Assembly: GCA_029891345.1 (NCBI GenBank)
Contig: CM057002.1
Location: 23,422,795-23,486,794 of the forward strand
DNA from: Dryococelus australis
Taxonomy: Eukaryota; Arthropoda; Insecta; Phasmatodea; Phasmatidae
Direction: 5' to 3'
DNA length: 64,000 nt
Shown here: positions 2,897 to 45,373 of the stretch, piece by piece
How positions within the stretch are numbered: the stretch's first letter is position 1
Layout: each line of letters opens with the position of its first letter
The notes under the pieces: generated by a model
Seen by the model: the letters and a program-made list of their open reading frames with translations, nothing else
Database searches by the model: none
What the model was told of the DNA's origin: nothing
Translations under genes and position numbers: made by a program

Positions 2897-3317
2897 ATGG
2901 CTGTTCACTATAAAGTGATCACTTTTGAAATCAACCTTTAGAAAAAAGTCACTGGCCCTACATTCATGTAATTGAACGGGCGTCCTGAGCGACATGCACC
3001 CAGTAAAGTTGGTAACGATGGAGGAGAAAGTAGTTCCGTATCTTAACGTCAAATAAAAAGTGTTAGGTGACCATTTGTGATAACTTAAATTATTTATTTC
3101 GCTCTCTGTTTATTTTTAAATGCATCGAAGTGTGAAAAATGAACAGATTTGTTAAAAATATTTACTTTTCAAATAGTTTCACTTGACCGACGCATGAATA
3201 AAGTGATGAAAACCACGACAACGTTAATCTTGCATAAGGCGGAAGAATACACAACGTACATACAATTAGATTTTAAGCAGGGCTTTCAAAAGTGTTCATT
3301 TTACGGTTAATAGCCTA
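2897..3317 (+). mobile_element. MITE A1, forward copy
   Basis: The ends are GGCTGTTCACTATAAAGTGA and AAGTGTTCATTTTACGGTTA, inverted copies of each other. The order of internal landmarks (AAATCAACCTT, CCAGTAAAGTTGGTAACGATGG, ACTTAAATTATTTATTTCGC, GACGCATGAATAAAGTGATG, AAGCAGGGCTTTC) defines the roughly 420-bp A1 type seen several times in this window. Non-coding and non-autonomous. Confidence 0.85.
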
Positions 3318-3777
3318 TAGATTAATTTTTTTCTTCCTTGCGTGTTCCGAAAATTTACTGAAAAACTACTTATATAACCGTCAAAAATCACTTATTAAAA
3401 CAATAACGTCGTGCAGTTTGTTTACGTTACGTTTTGCAACAAACCCCCGCTATTACCCAAAAAATAATTCCGCTGTGCGGTAGTTGATCACATCGTGTTT
3501 GCTTTACTAGTGGCCAAAAGCCACTTGATTTTTAAACTGGAAAAAGTGAGATTATAGACCTACTTAAAACCAAGCACATCGTTAGCAATGCAGTGTTAGT
3601 CCATACCCATACAGTAAAATGAAATTTTTAAAACCGCCTATCCACTAATTACTGACATTAATATGTAGCATTGAAACTGAATGCATGATGCCATTCACCC
3701 ATTTAAAGTAAACAGCAGTGTGCTAACCTTAGTGTAGAAGGTACATAGTTTTAACAATTCTGTAGGATGAAGGAAGG
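3318..3777. other. Unassigned spacer between MITEs
   Basis: AT-rich sequence with no open frame of note and no recognised repeat between an A1 and an A2 element. Confidence 0.4.
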
Positions 3778-4020
3778 TATAGGCTATTCAAGTTAAATTG
3801 AGCACTTTTCGAAGCCCTTTCATTTGGATTAATAGTCATTAAATATATTTTATTGTAACGTTAAGACATTAACTTTCGAGTGTAGTGAAATATATACACT
3901 GTGTTTATTACTTGCCTGGCAATAATTTTTTTTTTAAACGTGGTGGAAGGATAAAAATGGCAGCTAGGAAAAAAGTAACTAGAGCCTTTAAAGTGCTCAC
4001 TTTACCATGAACCGCCTATA
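3778..4020. mobile_element. MITE A2 copy abutting a B element
   Basis: It starts TATAGGCTATTCAAGTTAAA and ends AAGTGCTCACTTTACCATGA then ACCGCCTATA. The short A2 type (about 200-250 bp) shares the A1 ends but has its own middle (TTAATAGTCATTAAATATAT, ACACTGTGTTTATTA). Its right end CCTATAGG is also the left target duplication of the B element that follows. Confidence 0.85.
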
Positions 4021-4022
4021 GG

Positions 4023-4319
4023 TAGAGACACATGCAAAATTCGCGTTATTATTTGAAGACAGGCGAGACTTCAAACACTTGTGTTTTGTATTGCCTTTGT
4101 CATTAGACTAAAGTTTGTTAGGACACTCCCAGGGCGGCTTTAGACCAATAAGAAACCATTAACGAGAAGCTGGCCCAATCACGTCCAATCAAGTCGAAAG
4201 GGGAAAATGTGTGCTCACTGCTGCAGAAGCCAATAAAGAAGTGGCACTGGCTCGAATACGTATAGGACGGTGAATTTTAGAGTACTGCAAGAAAATAACG
4301 CGAATTTTGCATGTCCCTA
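4023..4319. mobile_element. hAT-type MITE family B, copy 1
   Basis: The TIRs are TAGAGACACATGCAAAATTC and, on the reverse strand at the right end, TAGGGACATGCAAAATTCGC. The flanks are CCTATAGG (4015-4022) and GCTATAGG (4320-4327), an 8-bp duplication matching at 7 of 8 bases. The left copy of that duplication is the very end of the A2 element, so B inserted into the A2 terminus. Related copies lie at 35810 and 47397. Confidence 0.85.
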
Positions 4320-4360
4320 GCTATAGGTATGTATAGTATAGGCAAAATAAGCTAGGAGAT

Positions 4361-4555
4361 GGAAATAATTATTAGAAAGCTGATTCCTTCTGAAATACGT
4401 TTTTTAGGTTCTCCTGTACTTCCCCATACAAATCCCAAAAAATCCTGCATGGGGAACACCCTTACCCTTTAAAAAAACGACCGCCATGTTGGATATTTTT
4501 TTACAAAAAAAGGCATAACTCAGAAACGGACAATCATAGAGAGAGGTACTGTTGG
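4361..4555. repeat. Left terminal inverted repeat of the 5.4-kb element
   Basis: Pairs with 9600-9793. The first 16 bases are identical on both sides. Farther in, similarity continues with small gaps through GGCATAACTCAG and ACAATCATAGAGAG. A TIR of this length should hold the transposase binding sites. Confidence 0.8.
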
Positions 4556-4899
4556 TACCAAACATTTCTGTTTTTGAAGAAGAACTCATTATTGCAATTA
4601 AAAGTCTAAAATAGACAGTTGATAAAACGTTATTAACATATTATTGCATAAAAAGGGTTTTAAAACGTACAAAACTTCATTTTCAACTAAAGAAATGTAT
4701 AATTGGGTTGGAAACTTATAAATTGACGGCATTCGTTTTAAAATTAAAAATAAACCCATCACATAAACAGGTAGTTAGTGTTCAATATGTCTGACAATTT
4801 TTCGTCTTTCAATAAACTCGTCTTCGTTTTACATAACATTCTCTGGTGGAGGCGCTGGAAGGAACGTTTGGCTTCGATATGATTCTCGATATCGCAGTT

Positions 4900-7800
4900 A
4901 CCTTCGATATCGTCTTCATCCTCTGAATCCGGGGATATTCCGATTGAAGCAGGACTCTCCCGCAGATTCGCTGCACATAGTGGTGCATGTCATCCCGCTT
5001 CGCCTGCACTCACAATTTCGGGAGTAGTCTCCTCTGCACCCACAACTTACGAGATGCAGCAGGTTGTCTGGCGCAGGGGGTAAAATTGGATGTGACAGGC
5101 TTGTATTGTCCCTGTTCGACGGTCCAGCCCCAATCTTTAGTTGAAAAGACGTCACCCTTCCACGCCTAGACTTAGTGATGTACTCGCAGAGTATGCTGGC
5201 TGGCGGAAGTTGAAGTAGGAGGAAGGCTCGCAAGATTCATGACGTAGTTTGGAGGTTTTTTTTTTACCAATGGTCTGGACATATTTCTTGTATCTGGTTT
5301 TGTATAGTCCCTCTGAACGTTCACCTCTCCATACAAATGGACGATTAATTGCTCTCCTGCAGCAGCAACACAATCCTGCGACGTGTTTGGGTTGTTGGAT
5401 ATGTCCACAACTTTCAGCAGCTCAATGTCATTTTTTAGCTTGTTGAAGCCTGAAATTAGACCTCTTTTGTGCAAAGCAGAGGTGGTGTCACATCCCATAA
5501 AAGCGCGTAGGAAAAGTAGGTGTTTCGTCATGTTACCAACGTCTTGTTGTAATTCTCTGTTGCAGTTAAACTTTTCTAGTGGTGGTGGGATTTCCGGGAA
5601 CTTACATGTACATGGCAAACTGGGGTTGTGTCAAGGCAGCATTGAGCACGAGCAGATCTGAGTCTGCACCAACTACAACAGCTGATCGTTCTGACTCCGC
5701 TTCTGTTTTCGCCGTTTCAACAACCAACACATCCGCGTCACTAAGGGCCTGGAAAACAGGGAACTTTGTTTTCTTGAATTCGGTTGTAAGGAATTAAAAA
5801 AAAAACTTGGTTTATTGTCAACGTTCGACAAGAATTGCTCTTGTGCAATTGTCACGGCATTGGATGGAGTTACATCAACATTCGCAGGTGATTTTCCTAC
5901 AGCTCGTCGCATATGCACTGCATCTTTCGTACTTGGTGCATATCCGTCGAATGCTACGATGGCATTTCTTCAGTAATTTCGGTTGATGTGATCAAAGTAG
6001 GCACTGCACACTTCACCATACGTTGCTGGGCGAGGCCAATATACTCTGTGCAAAAGATCCCCACTGTTGAGAACATAGCTTGGGTTTTCAGGCAGTTTAT
6101 TGGTAATCTTGCACATATTGTCGATTACTTAAACAATCTTCGATTTTGTTCACACGAGAAGACCAACTTCCTCAAACAAAGATTGAAGATATGGTGCCAA
6201 TTCATACTGTAGGCAGTCTTCAAGGCCGTCTGCACTTTTTACAACACACGCGATGAGGTGGAACAGTTGGTTAAGGTTGACAACTACAGGATCCTTATCA
6301 ATTTTTATGGTTCTTTCCCATAGGGGCCAGTGTGAACACTTGCGCCTTACTCTTCAAAGTCACATTTTCAAAAGATATTTCCACGTTTCCTGTGACAGCA
6401 TTTTCGCCTAGCCCCTAGGCTGAGTCACAATTAACTCTATCGTTAGCAACGATTCCTGAAGACAGGGAAATGAGCTCTATGGATTTGCTGGAGGGCGAAT
6501 GTTGTTTCAGCCAAACTACAAATTTCTTTAAATCACTGGTAGAAGGATTCTCCTGTCACTCCAGCGAAAGCTTCCACTGCTTCCGTCACATTGAGACTTC
6601 CCGGAATGGTGCAAACCCAATGCGCTACGACACTATCAGATATATTTCGGCCTTGTGCCACGCCACCATCAACCTTCATAGATCGCATTAAGACCTGCTG
6701 TATGGTCTTGTCCGTCCAAATGCAGCACCACAATTTATCCGATCGCCGAACTGTAAAATAACCCTGATTGACGAAACGTTCAAACTCTTGATCCGACAAA
6801 GTAGTCCTTAGTTAAGACATATTCTGGAGGTAGAGGTGGGCTGATCTGGCGTAATGAATATGGCCAGCTGCATGGAGGTGAGATAGCATGCGTTGGACGG
6901 AGAACAGATGAAGGTTCCAGTCACCTGTTCTTTCTGCTCTCATGAAGTCATGCATTATAGAAACTTGCTTGAAGTACTACAACCATAATTTAGCTGTACG
7001 GCTTCTTTCTTTTGGTGTTTTTTCTCGTGCTGGATACAGCTCTCAGTAAAGGTTCGACTTTGGCTTGTATAGATTCCTCGCTGGGGGACAAATGTAACGC
7101 CTTGTTGCGAATTCCCCTGAGAGTTTGTACATCAAAACTGATCAAAAATCCTTCTTCCTCATAACACTCCAATATCAAATGAGCGATAGCTGCCTGAGAC
7201 AGCGAATGAGCTCGTAATGATTTTACATAAGTATGCCCATTGGCCATGTGGACAACAGTATTCTTGGCAAATACCTTACCCACATTTTTTCCATACCACT
7301 GCCACCCATTATTTTGCCCACTGCACCCATGTAACTCATAAGAAGATGAAATCCGTCTAATCTCACAATTACTTTGGACAGCTAATCAGTTTCGTCCGCC
7401 TGATAGACTATATCTATGGCTTTAATGGAAAGTGGCTGATCGAACACCACAATGCACCTTTGTTGCCACTTCCTGTGTTCTTCAGCCACGAAACGAAGAC
7501 AGGTGTTAATTGAGGTGGGGTTAGAAGGTTGAAGATTGACGAAGGGCAAGGGTGTCACTGCTGACTTTTAGTAAAATCTTTTTCCTGCAGCAATCTCCAT
7601 GAAACCACTCCGTCCCTTGTGAGGTTTTTCAGCTGACTTGGGACCAGCCAGCCAAATCCAATGGTATCTGGTTCCCATCTCGGCATCCATCAGGTGCAAT
7701 TTCAGGGAGAGGACATCTTCCATTACCAGTCGATTCAATCTATGGTTCTTGGACCGGTCGTAAGTGACGATTGGGATGAAGCCAAACTTACCAACAACAT

Positions 7801-9200
7801 TTTACCGTTAATAGAATCTTCGGTCGTGGAACATGAGAAGTCGCCTGAACAGCTGAAGACGGTATCACACACTGCACTCTTCCCATCACATGAAAAGTTC
7901 CATGTCCATCCACAGTTCGAGTGTTGTGATCTGCATTGTCGAACACAAACTTCACAAATCCATTGTACTGAACTTCACTTGAAGTGTTTACTGTCACGGA
8001 AGTTTCATACTTGCAGATCTCGATGTAGGAAACTTAGCAGCCTAAATTATGCAGAAGGTTAATTAGATGTCTTGATCGGAAACACCTATGTAGAAACACT
8101 CCAATTCCAACCTGCACAGCTGTCACAAAAAGAACATGGACGCACCGAAGAAATGATAGCGTGCGTAACACTCAGCACCTTTTGGTTGCAAGGTGGAAGT
8201 TTTACTGGTTTCGTTAAACCAGAAAGCAGATGAGTGAGCATCTCACCTACTTGATTTTCTCCCCTTTTCGATATTTCTTCGTAGGTAGGATATGTCGAGC
8301 TATCATAAACTTCAGATCTTATCTCTTCTTGGAGGATGGTGATAGCCGCATCTAGAATCATCTTCTTTTCTTTCACAAAGTTTTTTTGTCGGCCGGAGCA
8401 CTAATTGTAAGTTAAAATCCTCGTTGCAGCGGGCCTAAGTGAAACAACAGTCCCGAAACATTTCATGCTGGATGACATAACAACGGTATTGCTGTAGCGT
8501 GCTGACAACATCTCCCACAGATGCTTTTCACTGTACAACTTGTCACTCACAGTACTGAACTTTAAGAGCATCTTCATAAGGACAGACAGGAGATACTGGC
8601 AGCCATCTTTGTCAACCAGGAAGTTGAATAATTTATTGAAAGCCTCTAACTTGAGCTGGTCAACAGGTCTTCCGACCACATTTTCAGATAGCTGGCATCG
8701 CATACTTGAACCAACGATTGAAAATCGTGCATCACAATTTTTATGATATTGCTCATCGGCAGCAATCAGGTTACATTCGCAATTAATGTGATTTAGAACT
8801 ATTTCCCCCTTGTAGCAGCTATTTGCTCAGATACTCCGAATATTTGCAATTTTCGGGACTCATTCCACTTGGTATATTTTTGGGTAGCGATCTGGGTGGG
8901 TGCTTCTTGTAAGCTTCCTTATAAACCGTCTCCCCACAATAAAGACAGCACAATTTAAAGTCGAAGGGCTGTAGGTCACTTCTTAGGAGGGGTTTTGGTG
9001 TATTTGTTCAGCCAGGTAGAGACCTCACTGGAAATGTAATTTCCATGTCTGGTATAACGTCTTCTGCACTGCACATGCACTCGTACATTACTAACGCCCT
9101 CAAGTTTTTCCCCTATCCCATATCTTCTCTGTATACTGAGATTCCTCAAAGTCTGTTGATGTCCACCATCCCGCCTTCTCCGCAGAAAATGCACTTCTCC
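4900..9200 (-). pseudogene. Degenerate transposon protein, DNADHN / GCDTTSA family
   Basis: Reading the minus strand from 9194 down gives, in order: HVQCRRRYTRHG (8976-9194); FDFKLCCLYCGE in a shifted frame (about 8850-8988); YHKNCDARF and a helical block (8401-8760); HAIISSVRP (8086-8376), then after a frameshift VQVGIGVFLHR; DNADHNTRTVDGHGTFH (7788-7997); FGFIPIVTYDRS; FDQPLSIKA and DGFHLLMSYMGAVGKIM (about 7285-7460); NTVVHMANGHTYVKSLRAH (6990-7283); ERTGDWNLHL and RRSDKLW...QQVLMRSMK (6600-6920); FLRAFMGCDTTSALHKRGL (5172-5618); and a cysteine-rich block ending CECRRSGMTCTTMC (4916-5233). I recall this order from a family of large uncharacterised proteins dispersed in arthropod and cnidarian genomes, which supports a mobile origin. 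The Cys/His N-terminal motifs look zinc-binding. Breaks include a frameshift near 8987, stops near 8825, 7391 and 6812, and a frameshift near 8115, so the copy is dead. The biochemical role is inferred only. Confidence 0.75.
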
Positions 9201-9599
9201 GCCATATTCTATCCAGCTTTACAACAACCGCCTACAATCCCCTCCACCTGTAAATAAAAAAATTACAATAATATTAATTGTAACAGATATCCAAACAAAA
9301 TCAGGTAACACAAAAAGGAAAATCTATGTTAAACATGCAAAAAATCTATGCATTTACATCGTACAAACGCAAGCAACGTTTTATCAGTCTCAACACCTGA
9401 TTTTATGTTTTGGAAACATTACGTGCATTATTAGCCAGTTGTATTTCAAACATAACCATGGCAATGCTGTATTTTTCGGAAAAGTCACAGCTTTTTGTAG
9501 AAATTCTATCGACTTAATTAACTTTTAACCGTTAACTGAATTACATTTAGAAAACACATGTTTTAATCGTTTATATTACACAAACCATGTATTTCAGCG

Positions 9600-9793
9600 C
9601 GAACAGCGCCTCTCTATGATTGTCCATTGCTGAGTTATGCGGTTTTTGGGGAAAAAAACCCCAAGACGGCGGCCGTGTTTTCAAAGTTTAAGGGTGTTCC
9701 CCATGCAGGATTTTTTTGGGATTTTCCTTGGGACTTACAGGGGAACTTAAATAACGTATTTCAAAAGGAATTAGTTTTCTAATAATTATTTCC
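9600..9793. repeat. Right terminal inverted repeat of the 5.4-kb element
   Basis: Reverse complement of the left TIR, ending CTAATAATTATTTCC. The open-frame remains run away from this end on the minus strand, so this side is upstream of the coding region. Confidence 0.8.
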
Positions 9794-12701
9794 GTTTCGA
9801 GTCAAATTTAAGTATAATTTGTGTATACTAGTAGGGATTAGCTTCTCGTCGACAGCGAGGTCATAAGAGATGGAGATAACTGCTCGTAGAATGAGCAAGA
9901 ACAAAATTAGGACATGCCCTCTAATAAGGTTGATTCTACTCAAGAGGAAAGGCAAGACAAAGCAAGACACTGATCCCTCACATATCATCCAAAAAATCAA
10001 TACTCAAACACTATTGAGAACAATTGCTGTCAGAAAAAACGTAATTTGTAATAAGAGTTTACGAAATACACTCTACTGTCGTTTGATTGCGATTACGTCT
10101 CAAAATGTGTAACAGAAATAGGAACTACGTGATCACTGATTGATTTTGCTGGCAGTTCTTCTGCACAAAAGTTATTGTCTGGCTCAAACTATGATTCATA
10201 CTTGCCCAGCCAAAACTTTTTAAATATTAATTTTATTTCTTCATTGATATTCACTCCCTCCAATGATCTTTACATGAGCAAACAATAAAAAATACAACTG
10301 TGAGTGGCATTGGGCGTTCATAAGCAAGCTTAATTCAATGGGAAAACATTACGGATTTAAGTGCGAAAAAAAAAAAATCCAGCCGTTATTAAAAGGAATT
10401 TTGTACTTTTTCCTCTCGTTTATGGAAACTGCACAGGAATGCCCTAAAAAAAAATGTATTTTGAAACATTCCACCATTAAATTTTTTCATTCAGTTGCGA
10501 TGTTTAAATAAAGCATTTGTGCAAGCCTACGTTTAGCTTAATCCATTTTACGACAGAATGTTTAACAATACGCGAGTATAGTTATTTATATTTCCAATCT
10601 GGTGTGAAAGGCCGAAGTTAATTCTTTACGCAGGGTCTGACTCGAGACATCACTTAAGATTTTACACAGGTACATTTAGCTATTTTATGACAACTGCAAT
10701 CGTCAAATTTACTTACATACAAAACGGAAAAAACCCAAACTTAAAGTACTGAGCTCTTCAACCTGAGTAGAATAAACATTACATTCGGCTCGGGTGATTT
10801 CGGGATATTCACGGAAAACCGAAATCAGGATGGCCTGACCTTCCTTTTCCTCCTCCCCTGCATTCTGGCTCTGCTCCAGTGACTTGCTCACGCTCTCATC
10901 TGACTTCTCTCCTTTCACAGACAGTGTAGGCGGAGCATTGGTGCAGACATTTAGTTATTATAATTGCGTGTTTCACACTGTGCAACAGATACTGGTGGCC
11001 TGTCTTGAACGAAACTTCAGTGATGAGCAACTGTGGAAGGATGCTACGTTTGTCGGGAAAAAATAAAACAACGAAGTGTTGAAGCTGTGATGGACCAAGC
11101 TTTGCAAGATCAACGTAAACCCCGGCTCCAAGGCCGACGCACACTTGACCAGACAGATATCGCTGCAGGTGCCAATCTCGTAATTCGCTCCCCTGCGCGC
11201 TTTGCTTCAGGCTGAGAAATCAGCTGGATCTCGGGTTATTGCGCTTCTGTTCTGCTTCCTCTCTGAGGTCGCGAGCTCTTTTCTATCATCTCAAGCTTCT
11301 TAGGAGAACTTTACCCCGCCATATCGTTTTTTTTTCTGACTTTTTATTTTAGAAAATCCGAAAATACCCTTGTATCCAGCTAGTTATTGACCTCATACAG
11401 CATTACAGACGTATGGATTGAACTGCAAACTCGCATTTACATCACAATTTTGACCTCCTCAAATTTTTCCGTAATTAATGTTGGGAGATTTATTTTAAAC
11501 ATTTATTTAATTTATTTATTATTTACATTCCACATTATTTGTCAGAAATTACTAATCCCCAGCTTTTCTTTTTGGATACCTGTAAGTTAGCATCAGTCGA
11601 CAACATCTTTCGTATTATTGTTCCCAGACGGAAAATCAATAGTCAATAATAAGCACGAGTATCTATAGACAGAAGAACTAACGAAATTGTTTCAAGCAAC
11701 CCTTAAACAAACTTAGCTCAGAAAGAGGTAAAACATTTAAGTTGTTCTGCTCGTTTCTAGACCTGCAACAAGGATTGGGACATGCTAAAACTGATTAGCG
11801 AATTAGCTTGATATGGTTTCCATTTTATCGAACGCTTCACCTTTTATAGTGTAGATAAATATGCTGAAACTAGTTACTTAAATTCACGGTTTCAGTTCAT
11901 CCTCTTAGGAGATTTTACTCTTTGAGGCCTATATTTGCTGACGTTCATGTTGAGCTATAGAAGCGAATACTTTCTATATCAACTCGTACACAGTAACGCC
12001 AGCTCTGTTTGTTTATTTATTCCCAGTTATCCCCAAGTTAAAACCGTCCTATTTATCTACAATTCATTGAAACTACACTGTACTGTAGACATTTCATTAT
12101 TGGGTGTCCATCAGCCAGTGCAGTGCCGATTTGGCCGATTCTCAATGATCGTGATTTTACGCATGTAATAGGATCTTCAACACATCGGGTTAATTTTAAG
12201 ATAATACTTGTTTTGATTAAAGAAATTTAATTTTAAGCGTCCCGCCTGCCTGCATCGTTTTTCTCCTTTTCTGGCCGAGCAGAGCGGGAGCTATAAGGGC
12301 TACACTGGCACGCGCTACAAGTGCGCCATCGTCTCTACGCGCAGAGCTCTGAACTGGTGTGCCAGTGTTCTCGTAGTGCTGCGTGTACCTATGGCACTTT
12401 CATCGGTGACAATATCATCTCATTGATGTAAAGTATGTAGCAAAGTTCAGTAGAGTCTCCTATCGTAGTTTGGATCGTGTCCGGCTGTTTTTAACTTTAC
12501 TGGAGGGCTCCAAAATAATATTTACAGCATGTGCGATAACTTTAAAGTATCATTCCTGCCTACTTTGTGGCGTGACGTCTTTTCGTAGGTAAACATACTG
12601 GAGGTACGTTTAATACTTTCGCCGAAAAACCACGATTTCCAACACTCTGCAATGCAGTTCATGCGCCGGGCAGGCAGAACCCTTAATGTCACTACAAGGT
12701 A
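9794..12701. other. Unassigned interval
   Basis: No recognised gene or TIR element. The segment 9855-9880 (GACAGCGAGGTCATAAGAGA) resembles a phrase in the SINE tails (ACAGCGAGGTC) and may be a SINE scrap. A small minus frame at 10709-10918 is rich in Glu, Ser and Lys but has no domain I recognise. The patch 10850-11200 is less AT-rich than its surroundings. Confidence 0.35.
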
Positions 12702-12937
12702 TATACTGTTCGCAGTGAAGTGAGCACTTTTGAGGCCCTATTTACTCGTTTCTTTCAGCCAATTTGTTATCATTTACCCATTTTAAAAATAAATATTGCC
12801 AAGTATGTAATCAACACAGTGTGTACATTCCACTGCACTCGGGAGTTAACGTCTAAGGCTGAAATAAAATACATTTATTGACTGTTATTCCAAAGGAGAG
12901 ACTTTCAAAAGTGCTCACTTTACCGTGAATAGCCTAT
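12702..12937. mobile_element. MITE A2 copy, diverged
   Basis: The ends TATACTGTTCGCAGTGAAGT and AAAGTGCTCACTTTACCGTG then AATAGCCTATA are inverted A-type termini. The middle includes TCGGGAGTTAACGTCTAAGG, shared with the copy at 45708-45918 (GTTAACGTCTAAGGCT), so these two form a sub-branch. Confidence 0.8.
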
Positions 12938-14578
12938 AATGACAAGCATTCATGAAACAGTGAAACTCTAAGCGGGGTTTTGTCTTCGAAAAAGAAACTT
13001 TTTCGATATTAATGCACCCCAAGTTACATTCGGGCTTAGTCCTTAAAGTGTTAAACATGATGGCTCGATATGAGCTGGTCCGTCTAGAACGTCAGTTTCA
13101 ATCTTAGCTCGAAGGTTCTCGCACTGTTTCCAGGAGGGTGGATTTTTTTTTTTGTCATCTCGGGGTTCCCCCTGTTGCATGTCCAGACGGCGATGTCACG
13201 GGCTTCCGCAGCGCTGAACGATCTGGAAGCTAAAGTCCGCAACTGTAGACGTCTCCAGGCCGTCTTGATCCCACGATCTGTCCGCCCGCCAAGTCTTCAT
13301 TCCTCCCGGGGCCGGAGGAAGCAAAACAGTTCGAAACTCGGCCATTTTCTCTCCGACGACCGAGCTGCGAAGAAGTTCGACGTATTGGTAATGCGCCTTT
13401 GTGTGGCGCGGGGAAGAAGTGGCTTTCGTGGTTGTTTGCGATTTTGAAGTTCGGATCGCTGTTCGCGCGCAGCCAACAAGTAGTTGAAAATTCCTCCTTA
13501 CTCACGGAAATTTATACGGAAATATACAGTTGAAGTAGTGTATACGCGGCGGAACAATTAAATAGTACTAATGATTTTTCTTTCTGATATTCAAATCTTC
13601 AATTTGAATTACACGCATATTAATATTTGAATACGTATGAAGTGCTTGCATGAATTAGTATGCGTACTTTCTGGCATGATTTAAGTACTACACTCAAGAT
13701 CATCACTGTCGTACAAATACAGATACCATGCAGTTTAATGATTGGGAGATTTAATTTCCTAACAAACTACAGCCACTTCATACACAAGCAATCAAGAAAT
13801 CTGGTTTAAGTACTACTTCAGTATAATAGCAAATGAGAACCTCGAAGATTTTAAGTTTCCGTCAGAGAAAAATGGTAATTGCCGAATATGCCGAAATTTT
13901 AATGTATTATCAGTATTCAAGCTTAATAATTTACCTTGACCAAATCCCTTGCCAAGTATCTCCGGCTCTTGCTAAATTAGTTATAATCTCATGGGTCCTC
14001 TGGGAAGTAAAAGAAATTTTGATATTCATGTTACCATTCCTCTGAGGCCTCGTTCTCGACACATAAACATGAAATTCATTACCCTTATATTCTCCACATT
14101 AGAGATTTCTTGAAGTAATAGACAAATTACACTTTATCAATATATAAGATCAAATAATTCTTCTTTATTGTAGCAGAATTCTTATGCCATGTGTTACACA
14201 TTCTAATACTAATAACACTTATTCAAAATTTGAATTGAATATTCATAATATTCAATCATAAAACTCCAGTTCTTTGCGAATAGTATTTCTTTTTTAAAGC
14301 ACACAATATGAAGAATTCTTTTCCTTCTAACAAATTTTTTTATCAGAGCAAACCATTACAGCGAGCATTCCAAACATTAAAAGAGACGAAAATATTTTAC
14401 TCTTGGCACAGACATAGATTAAAGAAAATAAATCATTAACACGCAAGAATTTAAATGTAGATTTGCATTTCACTCCTCATCGTTATGTAGAGTAAAATGA
14501 TATGTTACTACCACTTTTCCTTTACATGTCAGTCTGAACTAATCTGAATAGCAAATATCTCATGTTACTTCGCATACA
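12938..14578. other. Unassigned interval with GC-rich patch 13175-13450
   Basis: The patch carries overlapping open frames on both strands (+13175-13447; - 13230-13505), which is what GC-rich sequence with few stop codons gives by chance. No domain is recognisable. It could be an exon or CpG-rich promoter of an unidentified gene. The rest is AT-rich with no structure I can see. Confidence 0.3.
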
Positions 14579-14991
14579 CTTCGTTAAAACGTATACAACT
14601 TTCAATATGTGTAGGGGTCTGTAATCTCACTTCGTTACAACGGATACAACTTTCAATATGTGTAGGGGTCTGTAATCTCACTTCGTTACAACGGATACAA
14701 CTTTCAATATGTGTAGGGGTCTGTAATCTCACTTCGTTAAAACGGATACAACTTTCAATATGTGTAGGGGTCTGTAATCTCACTTCGTTACAACGGATAC
14801 AACTTTCAATATGTGTAGGGGACTGTAATCTCACTTCGTTACAACGGATACAACTTTCAATATGTGTAGGGGTCTGTAATCTCACTTCGTTACAACGTAT
14901 ACAACTTTCAATATGTGTAGGGGACTGTAATCTCACTTCGTTACAACGGATACAACTTTCAATATGTGTAGGGGTCTGTAATCTCACTTCG
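14579..14991. repeat. 51-bp minisatellite, about 8 copies
   Basis: The unit begins CTTCGTTACAACGGATACAA and includes TTTCAATATGTGTAGGGG. Units differ at only a few positions (TTAAAAC/TTACAAC, CGTATAC/CGGATAC, GGGGTCTG/GGGGACTG). Because 51 is divisible by 3 the minus strand stays open over the whole array (14565-14996) as a 17-residue repeat containing TPTHIESCIR. There is no evidence that it is translated. Confidence 0.95.
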
Positions 14992-15617: not shown

Positions 15618-16596
15618 TTAACATTGGCGAGACCTCTCGCCTCCGGGATCTACTTTCACTAGAAAATCATCGTTTCTGCAGCATTTAGAGTATACACACC
15701 ATTTAGAATCATTCCCCCAAATATAAGAACGTATCCTCGGGGCGTTACTTCTATCAACACTCAAAACCTCCAAACAATACTAAGGACTGTAACATAAACA
15801 ATGTCACGCATCCTTACCCTACACTGTCACAGGCAGGACGTAAGTTTTTTGTAAGAATTATGCATCTCGAAGCTCTTCATCGGTGTTCTTCAGCTTTGTA
15901 AATTTCTTTCTTACACTGCGTGGAACACATGCGTGCCTAAAATTATTATCTTTGAATCGGAAGTAAAGAAATACGAACTAGGATCCGTAATTTGCTTAAA
16001 ATTCTGTGGCATTTACGGAGAGCCCGCAGCAAAGAATATTTCATCAGCGCTTTTCCGCAAAAGTGGAAAATTTTTGGACAGTGTATGATACCTTCTTTAG
16101 AACTTGATTTATATCGAAAACTCTCAAAATATAAACTGGACGTTGTTCATTTAACACTTTTGTAATCAAAATTTGAAGTAAATCCTTGCTGATGACTAGA
16201 TATACTCGTATTTTGCAGAAATTTCGTCCTTTAGTTCTTAAACTGAAGGTCACCGTAATTTTATTGAATACGTACAATTATAATAATAAAATATATTTAC
16301 CTCTATATAAAAATTTCATCATAGTAGCAGATAATTTAGGCATAGCATCAAGTCATAGTACAATAACAAATCGTGGCGAAAGGTCAAGCAATGATTAAAA
16401 AGAACTATCGGATGGCTTTTAAATGTTTTAAAATTTCCTGGAATTCATTATAGTAAGCAGCAATGCCAATTAAATTGAAATTTTTTTCAAACAATAAAAA
16501 AAAAAAAAATTATTTAAGTAATTTGGTTTTTTTTCTTCTTTGGATACTGTTCCTAAACTTTTAGTCCGAGCTACTGTTAATGTCGAGTATTTTTTA
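15618..16596. other. Unassigned AT-rich interval
   Basis: Contains overlapping small frames at 16044-16398 on both strands with no recognised domain, and poly-A/T tracts near 16496-16510. No repeat pair found. Confidence 0.35.
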
Positions 16597-16830
16597 ATTG
16601 AAATATGATGCTAAGGTTGTCAATTGAAATATGATGCTAAGGTTGTCAATTGAAATATGATGCTAAGGTTGTCAATTGAAATATGATGCTAAGGTTGTCA
16701 ATTGAAATATGATGCTAAGGTTGTCAATTGAAATATGATGCTAAGGTTGTCAATTGAAATATGATGCTAAGGTTGTCAATTGAAATATGATGCTAAGGTT
16801 GTCAATTGAAATATGATGCTAATGTTGTCG
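16597..16830. repeat. 26-bp minisatellite, 9 copies
   Basis: The unit ATTGAAATATGATGCTAAGG plus TTGTCA repeats nine times and is almost identical throughout. The only change I see is in the last unit (CTAATG for CTAAGG). Such uniformity suggests recent expansion. The period is not a multiple of three and the units are stop-rich, so coding is excluded. Confidence 0.95.
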
Positions 16831-21050: not shown

Positions 21051-21457
21051 CAAAGGCTGTTCACGACAATGTGAACATTTTTGAAATCAACCTTAGAAAA
21101 AAGGCACTGCTCCTACCTGAGTGACATGTGCCCAGTAAAGTTGGTAACGATGGATGGAAAGAAGTCGAATAAAAATTTTAACGTCGAATAAAAATGCTAT
21201 ATAACCATTTGTGATGACTTAAATTATTTATTTCACTTCCTGTTTTTGTTTCACGCACCGAAGTGTAAATATTAACAGTTTTATAAAATATTTACTTTTC
21301 TAATAATTTCGCTCATTTACCTGACTGACGCATGAATAAAGTGATGCGGCCCATTGCAATTGTTAATTTTATATTGGGTGGAACAATACATAACGTGCAT
21401 ATAAGTAGATCTTAAGCAGGGCTTCCAAAAGTGCTAATTTTAACGTGAACAGCATAT
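21051..21457 (+). mobile_element. MITE A1, forward copy
   Basis: The ends are AAAGGCTGTTCACGACAATG and GTGCTAATTTTAACGTGAAC. Internal landmarks AAATCAACCTTAGAAAAAAG, CCCAGTAAAGTTGGTAACGA and ACGCATGAATAAAGTGATGC are in A1 order. Part of the region just after CACTGC is deleted relative to the copy at 32903. Confidence 0.85.
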
Positions 21458-23300
21458 ACATACACGTTGGAGTATTACGGAAATAGCAGCAAAATTATTG
21501 TAGGCCTGCTACCTTGACCTTTACAGTTATAAACATATCCTTACGAATTTCCAACGCACGCGAGAAAGTCCTCTCAAGGGACACCCAAATAGATGTTCCC
21601 TTGTCGCCAGGAGTTTTTTGAACGACCTTCCCGGATGGCGGAATTCTCAGTGGTGAAAATTATGTTCGTGTTATTAAGTACCTTACCTTGCTCTTTCCAT
21701 GCAATAGGCAGTTAAATAAATTTCAGCCTTAATACTCATCAGGCACAGCGCTAACAATAGCGGGCATGTTGCACAGGATTTTGTTTTTACGTTGGAAGGA
21801 TCATCATTACTTAAGCCTTAAGCCCATGTCACACTGTAAAATTTCCGCCTTCGACTATATTTAACAATAAAACTCGAATACAAAATACGGCCATTACATT
21901 TTTCCTTCCAGCAAATTTGATCAAATAATCTTGAATGTGTTTGAAAATTTGTCACATTAACACATTTTTTTTTTTACTGTGGAAAATCTAATTTGAATTA
22001 TTTTTTAAAAACAATTTTCACAATGAGATATTGTTTTTTTTTTTTTTCATGCAGCCCATTACAAAAAGAAATGTAAGGACTGTTCTAATTTATTTTCGTT
22101 TCTTTACCAAATTAAAATTTTTTTTATCACAGAAGTTTCCTGCACAATGAAATTTAATACCACTAAGTTCGTAATATTATATACAATATTCACTTAAAAT
22201 AGCAGTCATGTAAAAACGTCTTCTATATAAATTAATTATCTTCATAACCTATTGCATTTTCTGCAATTGTTCGTTTTTGTTAAAGTTTCGCGTCGTGCGT
22301 TTTGTCGTGCACTATTCTGATTGGCTGAGACCGTCAAACATCAAAGATATTTTAGAACCGGCCCAATCTTCAAACGTTTGACTGAAATTGGAGCCATCTA
22401 ACTTTTTTCAGACAAATATGGCGGCGTTTATGACGTTTCGATGACGCCATAACTATCCAACTTTATTTGACTAAACTTATTGGAAGGTCTACGGCGAAAA
22501 AAAATTTGACAGTTTGACAGGGGCTTCACAGAGCAAGTGGTCGCAGAAATTCCCTGTTCCCCCTGAAACCACGGCGACTGTTTGTTCCTACCGTGTGTAC
22601 CCAGAATGTAACTTTCAACGCCCACAACTGATCTCGAATCCTTCTTTCGAAATGCAGCAAGGCAGGCGATTCGAAGATGTTGCCCTGGTGTGCCGTGGTG
22701 TGTGGACCCCTCTGCGTCTGCTCTAACATATTCTCTCACCAGCTTCCGCTTGCCCATACATAGAAACAACTGTCTTTCGTGACAAAATTTACGCGGACGC
22801 CAGACCTCGATATCCTATGTGCACACTTGCAGCCTTCCTTCGGCTATTGGCCGCTTGTCTTTGTGGGAAGATATTCTACTGCACGAGTGGGCCAATCCGA
22901 AATAAGTTTCTCCTCTACTGACCGTCCGTGATTCGCGGGCAGACAGATAAGACGTGAAAACAATTGAAATGCTCCAGTCCCGAAAGCTGTTATAAATTAA
23001 AGTGTTTTGGAACACCCCTGAAATCTTTTCGCGAAAATCAGTTGCCCCTAACCATACAGTGTGTGTCCCTGCAGCAGGAGCAACTAGTGGATTTAATTTT
23101 TCATGTCTGTTAGTAGAGAGGAGGGAGGAGGTTAAAATGTCAATACAATATTTGGTTGTATTTTCGGGGATGTGTGAAGTGTTAGACAACAAGTTCGGCT
23201 CAGTTTACAATAGCGTTTTTGCGGCGTAGGATGTAGGAAAGAGTGGGTAAAAGGGGATGAAGACAATGCAGGCACGCGAGATGAATGTAAGTAAGGTCGG
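21458..23300. other. Unassigned interval
   Basis: Mostly AT-rich up to 22400, then mixed composition. Small frames at 22428-22769 and 22815-23229 overlap on both strands and show no family I recognise. The motif ATTGGCTGAGA near 22320 resembles a CCAAT-type box but no gene follows clearly. Confidence 0.3.
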
Positions 23301-23700
23301 GAAGCTGCGAGTAAGTGTCCACTCGATGCAATTACCAGGGAGACGGCGTGCTAGGGAGGGTAGTGTGGACGCCCGCGCGTGACCAGCATGGCGTCAGATA
23401 CCGCGCCCCTCCCGGGAGGATGCGTGTAATGGTGGCCTCTGTATCGGCCGAGGGGCTCCCAGTCTACCCCCTGGTCATCCCCGAGGGTCAGGCACTTATC
23501 GCTCATTTCGGGGCGAGGCGGCCCCTCGTCCGGAGGGAAGCGGGCCCTGCCTTTGTTTCCTCGTCGGGATGCGAGTCAGGCGGGAGAGAGGGAGGAAAGT
23601 CGCGCCTTAATCACGTCGTCCTCCCTCGACGTGGGCTTTGTGTGGACCTCGGAGGTTGGCGTTGCCGGTGGTCAGATCGTCCCTGACGGTACACAGACAA
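23301..23700. other. GC- and CpG-rich island of unknown role
   Basis: Clearly richer in G+C and CpG than its surroundings, with an open frame on the plus strand (23315-23686, 123 codons). The frame has no recognisable domain and the low stop density follows from composition. It could be a promoter-associated island or an exon of a host gene that is otherwise outside my recognition. Confidence 0.35.
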
Positions 23701-24720
23701 TCTGATAGGATTGCGAGAGGGACGTCGAAACACCACACGTCTTGAGACGACCTCGGCTGTGTACCTTCTGATCCCTTCAAGTGCCACGAGCCCCCCTTGT
23801 TCAGTTCATGTAAACTGTTCGACCGTGAACTCTGACGCCTGTGTTCGTTTCCACCTCGAGTGTTACTCTGTGGAATTTCACCTCCGCGCGAGTTTCATTT
23901 GTCTATGTGACATTCGCAAGTGTCTTTCAAACAGATGATCATAGGAAAAACAATCTAAGACCTAAGAAGGGCAAGTGACTCACACTTTTTGCTGAAGGAA
24001 ACATTACATGGTGCATCTGTGCCCTACCGCTAATTCATTGGCACGAAGCCAGTTGGTGAATTCGAACACGACCTTCATCTCAAAATTCACCAAGAAAAAA
24101 CCATTATGGAAATTAATTTCGCTAGCCGGTTATAATACGTCACGCCGATAATACCTCACGCCTACAACAAGGTTGTAGAAGAAATGAAGAAATGAGCGGT
24201 GCACGGAAGATTGCGGGGTTTCTTATCAACCTACAGGTTTGCTGGAGCAGGCAGAAATTCCGCTGCAACAGCCAGCAGTGACCCAAGATACAATACTGCA
24301 AGATGGGCGTCTTTGTCGAAAAGTGTTGTCACTTCGCCACCTGGAGATGCAACATTGAACTTAGTAGTCTGTGCGGGATGACAAACCGATTATTTTTCTA
24401 GAGGGCACCCATGACAGGAAAAAGAATGGTTCGGGCGTTGTGGGGCGTAAAAATTTGACAACTCTTCGGGTATGGTGATAGGTGTACGTTCTACGTTGTG
24501 TCACGAAACCACCACCAACCCAACGTGAGCATCACATCGTTCAGTAAATTACATAATGGGTTCAAATCGTCGACTTGCTACTTGACTACAGAGCCTACAT
24601 CATCGTTGCAGAGATTGACGCACATGCGAGTGTGTGTGCTCAGTAGCGTCACTATGTGGATTCGTGCAATAACATCATTCTCAGATGGCACAGGAGTCTC
24701 ATACACCATAACCTTCATAG
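23701..24720. other. Unassigned interval
   Basis: Mixed composition with scattered short frames at 23711-23938, 24199-24381 and 24498-24818. The last overlaps an opposite-strand frame (24578-24850), and both run into the TIR element starting at 24721. No domain recognised. Confidence 0.3.
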
Positions 24721-25466
24721 TACACTGTTCAAAAAAATTCCTTCTTTTACGTAAAAGTGTTGGTAAAAATTTGTCGACGGGTGTTCGTAAACTCTCCGAA
24801 AAATTACGGTCGCATTGATTTTCAAAAAACGGACTTTCTGTAAAATTCACGGAACCTCTCCGTTAATCCCCTAGTTAGTCTTCTGTACTTCTAGTTTAAA
24901 TAATTTTTAATATATACATATTGTATTTTAATTTTCGTTACGTGGGTGTTCTACTGTGTATAAAACATATATTTAAAAAAGTTAAAAAAAATTTTATACT
25001 TATATCTGAACCCGAGTTAAACAGTTGCAAGTTCACGATCCTAACCACTTACCTACAATGCTCACGTAGTGAATCTGGTATAAATTTTAAATTTATATAT
25101 TACTCACATAAGCAACTTTTTTAGTTTCTGTAGAAGTTAGTGTATTTTAAGTGTTTTAAGTGTTACATACGCCTGTTGCTACTTTTTTTTATGTTCGAAA
25201 GAACAGGTCTTAGTGACATGGATAACCTTAACTGCAGCAGAAACGATAACTATCTGGTTACAGTGGCGAAGAAAGTTTCGTGTAGACACGGCATTGTTCG
25301 TGCCCAATACCCGAAGTTATAGGAACTACCAACGGAGATTTTCCGTATTTTGTATTTACGCACTTAACTCCTTTTTTTTTTTGCCATTACGGATTGTGTT
25401 TCCATATATTTACTATGAATCTTCGAAAAAAATTTCGTAAATATACAGAAAATTTTTCACAGTGTA
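24721..25466. mobile_element. Probable hAT-type TIR element, 746 bp
   Basis: The left end TACACTGTTCAAAAAAATTC has an inverted counterpart at the right end, whose reverse strand reads TACACTGTGAAAAATTTTCT. Both are followed by stretches with TTTACG. The flanking octamers CTTCATAG and CCCCAAAG agree at only 5 of 8 bases, so the duplication is weak. The interior carries short frames (24921-25440) with no recognised domain. Confidence 0.5.
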
Positions 25467-25660
25467 CCCCAAAGAAAATAGTCAAGAGGTGTCAGATCTG
25501 GTGACCGTGTTGGCCGTGGAACAGGCCCCACAGCGTCCAAACCATACTTTTCTGGTACATGGGTCCCTTTTTGAAAAATGATCGGTATGGCATCCCGCGT
25601 AACATAGTGAGCATTGTCGATGTTGTTTTGAATCATACTTTCTAACATATGAACTGTTAA
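25457..25660 (-). pseudogene. Tc1/mariner-type transposase C-terminal scrap
   Basis: The minus-strand frame contains PTRSPDLTPLDYFLWGTL, preceded by a poorly conserved stretch with MIQNNIDNAHYV. SPDLTPLDYFLWG is the hallmark around the last catalytic aspartate in IS630/Tc1/mariner-like transposases. Only about 60 residues remain and the upstream catalytic aspartates are missing, so it is a dead fragment lying beside the right end of the 24721-25466 element. Confidence 0.7.
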
Positions 25661-25697
25661 TTGTTTCTACACATGCGAAAAGTGTAAAAACAAACAC

Positions 25698-26849
25698 AGG
25701 ATTAGACTGAACGAATAAAGTAACATATTTTCCAGCCCTGCGTAAGATGAGTGATAGGATGAAACATTGTTATTTAACCCCGGGATTTTGCCGGGCTGGT
25801 GTGAAACGGCTGCCGGGTGTCATGGTGGACAAATTATGTTAAGTATTGCATTATATCATGTTTGTTGAGACCCCTCAGGTCGTAGGTAGGCAGCCTGGCC
25901 CAAATTTTGATCTTAATATTATAAATGCCTTTACAGTTTTTTTTTTTTGTATTGCGTGAAAGAACTTGTAATATGTAATGTTTGTAAAAACCTGGCAAGA
26001 CTTACATGGAATTTATTTGCGTGGTTCGCCTAGAGTTTTTCCAAGATTTACAATATATTCAAAATATTTATTGCAGAAGTTAAAACTCTCCAGTAAGATT
26101 GTCAAGCGTCTCTTTGTAAGAAAATTCTTAAGGTATTTCCTAGAATTAAGATAAAATCTTTTGCTCGAAACAATCCCATTTTAGTAGAATGTAGAATGTT
26201 AGGGAAATTTACATTCACGGCATATCACGAAATAATACTTGCCGGCAAGTTAGCCACCAATTTCGCATGAACTGTTCTTTTCGCTTCAGGATACTTCCCA
26301 ACTCTCTGATTTAGGTGTGATAGGCATGGATGGGGAGGGGAGGAGACACTACGGTAACCAATAACACTAAATACTTTTTTCCCAGAAGCCCGCTCAGCTG
26401 ATTAGGCGACAGCTCTCCCCCAGGGTAGTTCGGATAGAAACTTTGAACCCAACGATTTCGGAAGAAGAGGGTTGGAGTTAAGTCTAACCACTGAGCAAAA
26501 TACTTTATCGTCTTAATCCTTTCATGGTTGGATGTTGGATGTTACATTTTTGACTGGAATTGACATTTTGCAGACCAGACATAACTGTTAATTCATAGAG
26601 TGTCAGAATTACATTGGACCAGAGACCCGGGAAAGCAGATTTCTACACGCACGACGGCAAATAATGAACGAAAACGTTTTGACGTGTGCAGAGTAAATTG
26701 GAACAGAGGAACAGCCAATTTATACCTCGATAAATCACCAATCTCTAGCAATTTCGAAGATTGTTAACGATTCTCTAGGATGTACAACGTGCAGTAAACT
26801 CACGTCGGAATTCGGCGTTGAGTGGAGCCTAGTGGTTTTGTCGTATAGC
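25698..26849. other. Unassigned interval
   Basis: No gene or repeat recognised. The phrase at 26000-26045 (ATTTATTTGCGTGGTTCGCC TAGAG) resembles 18690-18720 (AATTTGCTTGGTTCATC TAGAG), and the following ACAATATATTCAAAATATTT resembles 18738-18757. A diverged dispersed repeat about 150 bp long may therefore be present at both sites. Confidence 0.35.
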
Positions 26850-27135
26850 TAGAGCCACGAGTATTTCGCGAGTTCATTTGGAGACGAGGTAGACTCCAAA
26901 CACTTGTTCTTTTCTCCTACAGCTGTAATTGGACGACACTTCTTTAGATACGCCCCGTATAACCGTGAGCCAGTCATAAGCAGGAATCAGTAGTGTGAGA
27001 GAGTGTTTGAGAGTCCTGTACAGAGGCCTCACTAGATCACAGCAACCAATAAGCAAACGATAATGTCTCGAGTGTATAGAGGACTGTACAGCCTAGCTTG
27101 CTGCTAACTCAATTCGCGAAATACTCGGGGCTCTA
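26850..27135. mobile_element. hAT-type MITE, TAGAGCC ends
   Basis: The left end is TAGAGCCACGAGTATTTCGC. The right end on the reverse strand is TAGAGCCCCGAGTATTTCGC. The flanks are CGTATAGC (26842-26849) and CGTGTAGT (27136-27143), 6 of 8 identical. The element is 286 bp, non-coding, and related in design to family B (TAGRGAC ends, TTCGCG core). Confidence 0.8.
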
Positions 27136-27227
27136 CGTGTAGTCAATTTATGCCTGCTTTCAACTTTTCCGAAGCGCTGCAAAAGTTCTGCTTTCGGGAT
27201 ATTCCTTCGCCTCATGCGAAATAAGCT

Positions 27228-27652
27228 TATAGATTATTCACGGTAAAGTGAGCACTTTTGAAAGCCTTGCTAAAGATCTACTTGATTGCACGTTGTATAT
27301 TCTTTCGCCTTATGTAAAATTAACATTGTTATCGGCCTTATAACTTTATTCATGCGTCGGTCAAGTAAAATTCGAAATTATTAGGAAAGCAAAAATTATA
27401 CAAATATGCTAATTTTTACACTCCGATGCATTAAAAATAAACAAAAAGGGAAAGTAATAATTTAAGTTATTTACGTGGTTGCCTAACACTTTTGATTCGG
27501 CGTAAAAATATGGAACTATTTTCCATCCATCGTTACCAACTTCACTGGGCAAATGACACTCACTGCACCTATTAAAATATATGCATTCAGGGGCGGTGAC
27601 ATTTTTATAAGGTTCACTTCTAAAGTGCTCAATTTATCGTGAACAGCCTTTA
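27228..27652 (-). mobile_element. MITE A1, reverse copy
   Basis: It starts TATAGATTATTCACGGTAAA and ends AATTTATCGTGAACAGCC. Landmarks appear in reverse A1 order: GAAAGCCTTGCTAAAGATCT, TTCATGCGTCGGTCAAGT, CCATCGTTACCAACTTCACT. It is directly followed by a truncated C element. Confidence 0.9.
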
Positions 27653-32902: not shown

Positions 32903-33327
32903 ATAAAGGGGTTCACGATAAAGTGAGCACTTTTGAAATCAACCTTAGAAATAAGTCACTGCCCCTGCCTGCGCATATTTTAAAGGGCGCACTGAGTGAC
33001 ATGTGCCCAGTAATGTCGGCAATGATGTATGGAAAGTAGTTCCACTTCTTAACTTCGAATAAAGTGTGTTTGGTAACTATTTGTAGTAACTTAAATTATT
33101 TATTTCGCTTTCTGTTTTATTTATGCATTGAAGTGTAAATATGACCAGAGTTGTAACAAATTTACTTTTTTAATAATTGCATAGTTTCACCTGATCGCCG
33201 CATGAATAAAGTGAAGTGGGCCGTGGCAATGTTGATTTTCCATAAGGCGGAAGGATACACAACGTGCATACAAGTAGATCTTGAGCAGGTCTTTCAAGAG
33301 TGCTCATTTTACCGTGAACAGCCTATA
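32903..33327 (+). mobile_element. MITE A1, forward copy
   Basis: It starts GGGGTTCACGATAAAGTGAG and ends TTTTACCGTGAACAGCCTAT. It carries the full A1 landmark order, including GTGACATGTGCCCAGTAATG and CGCATGAATAAAGTGAAGTG. Confidence 0.9.
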
Positions 33328-33329
33328 TA

Positions 33330-33510
33330 CTTGGTTCACTTTTAATTGAGCACGTTTGAAAGCACTGCTTAAGGTTACTTCTCACATTTTGTATCCTTCC
33401 GCTACATGTACTGTAGAATGTACAATGACTTTATTAATGCGTCAGTCAAGTGAAAACGTGAAATTGTTAGGAACTGCTTTTCTTTATTCGCTGCCAACTT
33501 AACTGGAAGC
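33330..33510 (-). mobile_element. MITE A1, reverse, right half missing
   Basis: GGTTCACTTTTAATTGAGCA, CGTTTGAAAGCACTGCTTAA and TTATTAATGCGTCAGTCAAG follow the reverse A1 order. The match fades after GCCAACTTAACTGGAAGC. It begins exactly where the forward A1 ends, and the two share TATA at the junction. Confidence 0.75.
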
Positions 33511-33897: not shown

Positions 33898-34246
33898 TAT
33901 AGGCTGTTCACTGTAAAATGAGCCATGGGCCTCATAACTTTATTCATGCGTCGACCAAGTGAAATTATAGAATTATTATAAAAGTAAATGTTGTACAAAT
34001 CTGGTAATTTTTACACTTCGATGCATTGAATAATACAGAAAGTGAGATAAATAACTTAAGTTGTTTCAAATAGTTACCTAAAACTTTTCGTTCCACTTTA
34101 ATAATATGAAATTACTTTCCCTTCTTCCACTAACAACTTTACTGGACACATGTCGCTAATTGCGCACGTTAAATTATATGCAGATAGGGGCAGTGGCTAT
34201 TTTTGAAGGTTGATTTCAAAAGTGCTAACTTTAATGTGAACAGCCT
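33898..34246 (-). mobile_element. MITE A1, reverse, internally deleted
   Basis: It starts TATAGGCTGTTCACTGTAAA and ends AGTGCTAACTTTAATGTGAA then CAGCC. Right after ATGAGCCA it jumps to TGGGCCTCATAACTTTATTC, so about 70 bp present in the copy at 40840 are deleted here. Confidence 0.85.
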
Positions 34247-35809: not shown

Positions 35810-36098
35810 TAGAGACCTGCAAAATTCGCGGTATTATTGGGGGACATGTTAAATTTGAAACACACGTACCTTTGAAATACGTTTGTCATTTGACCATACT
35901 TTGTGTGATACACCCCGGGTGACTCTGCACCAATAAAGGAACACTTCACAATTGTGTGCCTATAATCACGTGTTAGTTCAGTCAGAGAGGGAGTGTCTTC
36001 ACGTCTATGCAGCAGCCAATGGAAGCCGACTCTAGTGCATACAGTACTGTGAAGTTCAGCCTGATGCCAAGTAATAACACGAATTTTGCATGTCCCTA
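35810..36098. mobile_element. hAT-type MITE family B, copy 2
   Basis: The left end is TAGAGACCTGCAAAATTCGC. The right end on the reverse strand is TAGGGACATGCAAAATTCGT. The flanks are CCTGTAGT (35802-35809) and CCTATATT (36099-36106), 6 of 8 identical. As at 4023, it sits directly on the right end of an A2 element. Confidence 0.85.
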
Positions 36099-36106
36099 CC
36101 TATATT

Positions 36107-39997: not shown

Positions 39998-40238
39998 TAT
40001 AGGCTATTCACTGTAAAGTGAGCACTTTTGATAGCCATCTCATGTGGAATAATAGCCAGTAAAAATATTTACTCTTAGCCTTACACGTGAACTTCAGAGT
40101 CCGGTGAATCATAAACACTGTGTTCATTATTTACATAGTAATATTTATTCAAAACAGCTGGTTAAGGGATAGTAAATATCTGAAAGGTAAAAATAACTAG
40201 GGCCTCAAAAGTGCTCACTTTATCGTGAACAGCCTATA
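39998..40238. mobile_element. MITE A2 copy
   Basis: It starts TATAGGCTATTCACTGTAAA and ends AGTGCTCACTTTATCGTGAA then CAGCCTATA. The middle has TGGAATAATAGCCAGTAAAA and AACACTGTGTTCATTATTTA, closest to the copy at 3778. Confidence 0.9.
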
Positions 40239-40240
40239 GG

Positions 40241-40481
40241 CATTACTAACACTCACTTTTTCTCCGTTTTAATTCATATTAATTACAAATTAAATATAGC
40301 TTCTACATGATATATAAATACAAATTAAATTAATCAGAAACGAGATAATTTCGTGTTAATACAAGTATAAAATGCTCGTGATACATGGGGTATTTAGTAA
40401 ACAACCAAACACGTTATACACGAGACTATTTTATTGATGTTTTAATTCAAAAAGTGCGAAAGCACTGCGAATACTCTATAT
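40241..40481 (-). mobile_element. MITE family C, reverse, partial
   Basis: GTATAAAATGCTCGTGATAC, ATGGGGTATTTAGTAAACAA and TTAATTCAAAAAGTGCGAAA match the reverse complement of the C left half. As at 27655, the copy begins directly at the end of an A element. Confidence 0.6.
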
Positions 40482-40839
40482 ATCTGCAAGACTGGCCACA
40501 AGACTGCGAAGTCTAGCCTGCAAGTAATTGATATCTCGAATTTTTCATATCTGTACTTACTGGTAGAGATACCACCATTTCTTGTTACTAGCTGGCACCG
40601 AGCTAGACTCCACAGTCCTCTACACACTCGAGAAGGGATCACCTATTAACATGCTGTCGCCACAGGCCGAACTCATTCTCCAACATTCATTCTCTCTTCG
40701 TTCGGGAACAAGATATGCTTCAAACACTTGTACAAGCAAGTCTTTGGAGCTAGCCTCTCGGCTAGCTATCGTTCTTTGTTTTCAGCTGGTTCGGGCGTTC
40801 TAGCGGCAAATGGCAATAAGTAACCCAGATTATAGTTTT
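40482..40839. other. Unassigned interval
   Basis: The segment GCTAGACTCCACAGTCCTCT at about 40603-40622 also occurs in the hAT-type MITE at 45122 (GCTAGACTCCTCAGTCCTCT), so a diverged MITE of that group may lie here. Its ends are not visible to me. Confidence 0.4.
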
Positions 40840-41268
40840 TATAGCTTTTCACGGTGGAATGAGCACTTTTGAAAGCCCTGCTTAGTATATACTTGTATGA
40901 ACGTCGTGTATTCTTCCGCCTTATGTAAATTAACGTTGGAATGGGCCTCATCACTTTATTCATGCGTCGGTCAAGTGAAACTGTGAAATTATTAGAAAAG
41001 TAAAATTACACAAATACGAACATTTTTACACTTAGGCACGTTACAAACAAAACAAAGGGCGAAAGACGTATTTAAGTCACTATAAATGGTTACCTAACAC
41101 TTTTTATTTGACGCTAAGATATGGAACTACTTTCCCTCCATCGGAACCAACTTTACTGGGCACATGTCACTCAGTGCGCCCGTTAAAATAGGTTATATAC
41201 ATGCAGGGGCAGCGACTTTTTTCCAAGGTTGATTTCAAAAGTGCTCATTTTATCGTGAATTGCCTTTA
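40840..41268 (-). mobile_element. MITE A1, reverse copy, best preserved
   Basis: It starts TATAGCTTTTCACGGTGGAA and ends AGTGCTCATTTTATCGTGAA then TTGCC. All A1 landmarks are present in reverse order (TTCTTCCGCCTTATGTAAAT, ACTTTATTCATGCGTCGGTC, CCAACTTTACTGGGCACATG), which makes it a useful reference for the family. Confidence 0.9.

Positions 41269-43012: not shown

Positions 43013-43014
<2 letters not shown>
41269..43014. other. Unassigned interval
   Basis: Frames at 41183-41563, 42347-42632 and 42815-43102 overlap repeats or each other and carry no recognised domain. I see no repeat shared with the rest of the window. Confidence 0.3.

Positions 43015-43082
<68 letters not shown>
43015..43082. 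repeat. (AG)n microsatellite
   Basis: A pure AG tract of about 68 bp, followed by GC-richer DNA with G runs (43190-43222). It generates Arg-Glu and Leu-Ser repeat frames that are artefacts. Confidence 0.98.
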
Positions 43083-43087
<5 letters not shown>

Positions 43088-43966: not shown

Positions 43967-44066
43967 CTAAGCTTCAGCGTACAAAAATGCCCTTTCTCTG
44001 ATTAGCCCGTTTATTGATATTATAGCCTATAAAGATGGGGTTAATGAAGGAAATTCAATCATACAG

Positions 44067-45113: not shown

Positions 45114-45121
45114 CTAATTTA

Positions 45122-45365: not shown

Positions 45366-45373
45366 CTAATTTA

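Follow-up and report, generated by a model that had tools for sequence, protein, structure and literature searches.

A decayed transposon of probable Academ affinity in the stick insect Dryococelus australis, with one large protein that appears to join a DDE transposase core and a FEN-type nuclease

We analysed a stretch of 64,000 nucleotides from Dryococelus australis (GCA_029891345.1, contig CM057002.1, positions 23,422,795 to 23,486,794 of the forward strand; hereafter the window), in which positions 4361 to 9793 hold an element with inverted ends and the remains of one large gene. We read it as a copy, now decayed, of an autonomous cut-and-paste DNA transposon belonging to the Academ superfamily, more precisely to its nuclease-bearing lineage (AcademX), and give this reading a probability of roughly 0.83. 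Its one large protein appears, from structure predictions, to join a cut-and-paste transposase with a DNA-repair-type nuclease, and the transposon is most likely of a kind already known. The element, its terminal inverted repeats (TIRs) and its gene are placed as follows.

4361..9793, no strand assigned: whole element, 5,433 bp, defined by the TIR match of a single copy in the window
4361..4543, plus strand: left TIR (repeat search, blastn)
9610..9793, minus strand: right TIR (repeat search, blastn)
4364..4373, no strand assigned: palindrome AATAATTATT inside the terminal 18 bp of the left end, with a second occurrence at 9781-9790 in the right end
4819..9205, minus strand: broken transposase gene, a 1,473-residue read-through collinear with its relatives

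Comparison of the element with the 64-kb window by blastn returned a TIR match of 185 bp at 83.8% identity (E 3e-44), and a repeat search gave the inverted arm pairs 4356-4442/9712-9798 and 4434-4543/9610-9719, each 84% complementary. These results bear out an earlier note on this DNA, which had described a bounded TIR transposon with inverted ends of about 195 bp. Inverted repeat pairs from other families abound in the window, as would suit a broken host gene that merely happens to be flanked by two inverted copies of some dispersed repeat. However, blastn found no second copy of the element or of its arms within the window, the arms bracket the entire coding region and relatives of the protein are numerous, so that we regard such a coincidence as highly improbable.

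The ends share a perfect terminal 18-bp match, GGAAATAATTATTAGAAA, with outermost bases at 4361 and 9793. Local alignment shows a gapped, weaker inverted similarity that continues outside them, and we therefore treat these positions as putative exact ends only. As read in this single copy, the palindrome AATAATTATT either belongs to the TIR or represents a target-site duplication (TSD), whole or in part. No direct repeat was found immediately outside 4361/9793 at this one copy; just within the ends, the palindrome makes it possible to place symmetric direct repeats whose length is 4, 6, 8 or 10 bp, and a 3-bp direct repeat was found 20 bp outside them. Worked by hand, the 4-, 6-, 8- and 10-bp repeats all imply one and the same empty site, the 16-bp palindrome GGAAATAATTATTTCC.

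Between the ends, 18 pieces from the three minus frames were strung together from 9205 down to 4819 into a read-through of 1,473 residues, which contains 9 in-frame stops and changes frame 16 times, in agreement with the previous description of broken remains of one large minus-strand protein. The joined pieces show collinearity with predicted proteins that are about 1,450-1,480 amino acids long; the alignment with P0002, for instance, covers residues 35-1445 of the read-through. Since many relatives are collinear in this way over almost the full length, we consider the joins sound. All three sequence blocks singled out before were located: GCDTTSAL with its Asp at 5489, DNADHN starting at 7940 and a GGFHLLMS-like block, spelled DGFHLLMS in this copy, with its His at 7348. 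Pfam models scanned against ten window fragments and NCBIfam models against four gave nothing above cut-off; XRN_N on the fragment with DSDLL (E 0.087) was kept as a lead only.

A search with the read-through retrieved 55 proteins at E <= 1e-3, and a profile built from 37 relatives retrieved 216 at E <= 1e-5 from the 7,991 scored candidates sharing most words. Named sources among the best 120 of the 216 include thrips, stick insect, beetles, whitefly, butterfly, ant, parasitoid wasp and soft coral, together with one rust-fungus record. A profile of the core alone retrieved 1,411 proteins, with bivalves among the best 120. The closest named relatives come from Dryococelus australis itself, P0014 being 51% identical over 417 amino acids of the core and 65% over 140 amino acids of the nuclease region. 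Where names are given, they are uncharacterized, hypothetical or CXC domain-containing, and scans of viral and genome contigs with alignment A1 found no relative. Residue counts below were taken on 109 of 156 proteins (length 1,380-1,560 amino acids; the 47 others were left out for length) and family models were scanned against 30 relatives at E 0.01. The rust-fungus record (P0152, Austropuccinia psidii) lies on a 5.2-kb contig and may represent either an Academ of the fungus or a contaminant.

Two regions of the protein carry the interpretation.

6560..7961, minus strand: predicted RNase H-like DDE transposase core (predicted structure, conserved triad)
5139..6150, minus strand: XPG/FEN1/EXO1-type nuclease domain (profile and structure matches, conserved aspartates)

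The half of the protein that contains DNADHN, TFDQPL and IEQ is, with moderate confidence, a DDE transposase core. RAG1 or ISCth4 fill the 19 best Foldseek rows obtained with the N-terminal model, the best VIA rows are DDE transposases, and a candidate D, D, E triad is conserved in 109 of 109 relatives. The window copy keeps the Asp codons at 7940 (and 7931) and 7441; the third codon, at 6700, encodes Gln where all 109 relatives have Glu. With residues counted backwards from where each aligned structural range ends, E840 as third acidic residue agrees exactly with RAG1 (6xnx) and Hermes (4d1q) and to within 3 with Hermes 8sjd, on what we take to be their catalytic numbering. Weighing against this reading of E840, the same count is off by about 11 for HzTransib, again on presumed numbering, and this mismatch together with the root-mean-square deviations makes the evidence for a DDE core weaker. 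In the hAT (Hermes), Transib and RAG1 proteins, as in the prediction for our element, a helical insertion precedes the last acidic residue of an RNase H-like core; a PDB profile search gave no sequence-level match to any of them, and none is known to carry an XPG domain.

That the protein does not look like a standard RNase H (DDE) transposase, as was first thought, is therefore not upheld, and with a predicted core whose triad is invariant it is unlikely that the nuclease alone drives the element. One could still suppose that the XPG/FEN domain does the cutting alone and that the DNADHN/TFDQPL block is structural or DNA-binding, since the XPG-type match is far stronger than the DDE match; given the Foldseek and VIA rows and the conserved D, D and E, we find this unlikely.

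Part of the core is matched in 8 of the 30 relatives by the Pfam family DUF6589 (PF20231; best E 1.7e-8), which has no function assigned in Pfam. In P0028 the match (residues 595-881, E 1.3e-6, 27.8 bits against a cut-off of 27) begins 15 residues past the second Asp (580) and holds the His of GxFH (607) as well as the Glu (831), whereas in P0007 (residues 591-792) it holds the second Asp (597) and excludes the Glu (839). From these spans, DUF6589 is probably part of this DDE core. The name DUF6589 was not found in the papers searched.

Sequence-profile and structure matches agree in identifying GCDTTSAL with the GCDY-type loop of XPG/FEN1-fold nucleases, a likeness already seen in the earlier note, and structure prediction, its proposed check, returned a FEN-type fold with the clustered aspartates of XPG/FEN1 (Rad2) nucleases. 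The predicted domain shares fold and acidic motifs with EXO1, FEN1 and XPG but, unlike them, forms one chain with a transposase, and it has DAD in place of the EADA motif of EXO1. Asp codons at 5948, 5739, 5733, 5664, 5658 and 5489 are kept in the window copy and the first, at 6068, encodes Asn. With one residue lost per active site and its many frameshifts and stops, this copy is dead.

Further parts of the protein may bind DNA or zinc.

9066..9193, minus strand: first Cys/His motif (Cys pair ... HxxC), presumably zinc-binding (conservation in 30 relatives)
8734..8947, minus strand: second Cys/His motif (CxxC ... YHxxC), presumably zinc-binding (conservation in 30 relatives)
8431..8667, minus strand: possible winged-helix DNA-binding domain
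4943..5044, minus strand: C-terminal CXC (Tesmin/TSO1-like) cysteine motif (cysteine columns; names of P0049, P0113, P0118 and P0129)

In P0002 numbering, C8, H50 and C53 of the first motif are invariant and C3 nearly so; in the second, C86, C89, Y152 and H153 are invariant and C156 nearly so. The CXC model had no match in the 30 relatives at the threshold used, and the literature search returned nothing relevant that ties CXC/Tesmin to a transposon or to XPG.

The nuclease of AcademX is of the XPG type. Academ, suggested earlier as a possibility, is the best placement of our element by description, on its predicted RNase H-like DDE transposase, predicted nuclease, TIRs (83.8% over 185 bp) and length. 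In published descriptions, Academ is one Repbase superfamily with a DDD/E transposase (PMC9587614), AcademX has a nuclease and 3-4 bp TSDs while AcademH has a helicase and 9-10 bp TSDs (PMC10045372), and curated bivalve Academ elements have a mean length of 5,565 bp (PMC10294476); PMC10799480, PMC4455052 and PMC5753468 yielded only lists or the helicase lineage. No paper combining Academ with XPG and Repbase came up in the literature search. Our element thus resembles AcademX, as far as these texts describe it, in its DDE transposase with nuclease, TIRs and length of about 5.5 kb, a comparison by description, and differs in that the window copy is dead. The lack of a reference alignment, and a TSD length that one copy does not fix, would also suit a separate, undescribed superfamily that shares with Academ only the design of DDE plus nuclease. 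Because transposase, nuclease, length and TIRs all fit the nuclease lineage as described, we give that alternative little credence.

AcademH belongs to the same superfamily but carries a helicase. No helicase family was found in the 30 relatives, in a scan that also missed the remote XPG domain, so that a very divergent helicase would escape it too; nor was a helicase Pfam domain seen among the best 120 of the 1,411 core matches, most of which have no Pfam annotation. The 10-bp palindrome at both ends is, in a single copy, not distinguishable from a 10-bp TSD.

If the element is an AcademX transposon, the Cys/His, winged-helix and CXC parts of its single protein would serve to bind the TIRs, and the DDE core, by its predicted fold and conserved residues, would cut and join DNA strands. 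The fused FEN1/XPG-type nuclease, likewise predicted from fold and conserved residues, may act on a branched intermediate of excision or integration (such as a 5' flap, gap or hairpin) by trimming or opening it. A more specific proposal, which we offer tentatively and think somewhat doubtful, is that one chain obligatorily couples a hAT/RAG-like DDE core to a nuclease of the FEN/EXO1 type, that the FEN domain processes the intermediate (e.g., a hairpin or 5' flap) and thereby determines the target duplication inside a palindromic, AT-rich site, and that DUF6589 is the unrecognised DDE core of the group. With this copy, a widespread animal protein family that has no name becomes easier to place, and DUF6589 gains a likely identity. 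Candidate residues have been mapped in both active sites and there are full-length relatives, which opens the role of the fused repair-type nuclease in transposition to experimental test.

Other repeats occupy the window. About 30 bp left of the transposon, a short element-like stretch (about 4015-4327) has 21-bp perfect inverted arms (4030-4050/4294-4314), and parts of it match 47635-47691 and 36073-36104. A dispersed family of about 240 bp resembling miniature inverted-repeat transposable elements, with ends like TATAGGCTATTCACGGTAAAGTGAGCACTTTT, lies at 3778-4022, 12700-12938, 39998-40280 and 45708-45918, along with many end pieces. Its outer ends are common to a second family with longer arms (33123-33330, 33922-34026, 21260-21458, 27228-27431, 3120-3319 and 40840-41004), some pairs of which are inverted and about 1 to 6 kb apart. 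Open reading frames of at least 85 amino acids are present in 21400-27300 and 40250-45700. By eye, about 2690-2880 resembles a tRNA-derived short interspersed element; ARAGORN found no tRNA in the window. Tandem arrays of a 51-bp unit (8.1 copies) and a 26-bp unit (9.0 copies) lie at 14577-14991 and 16596-16829.
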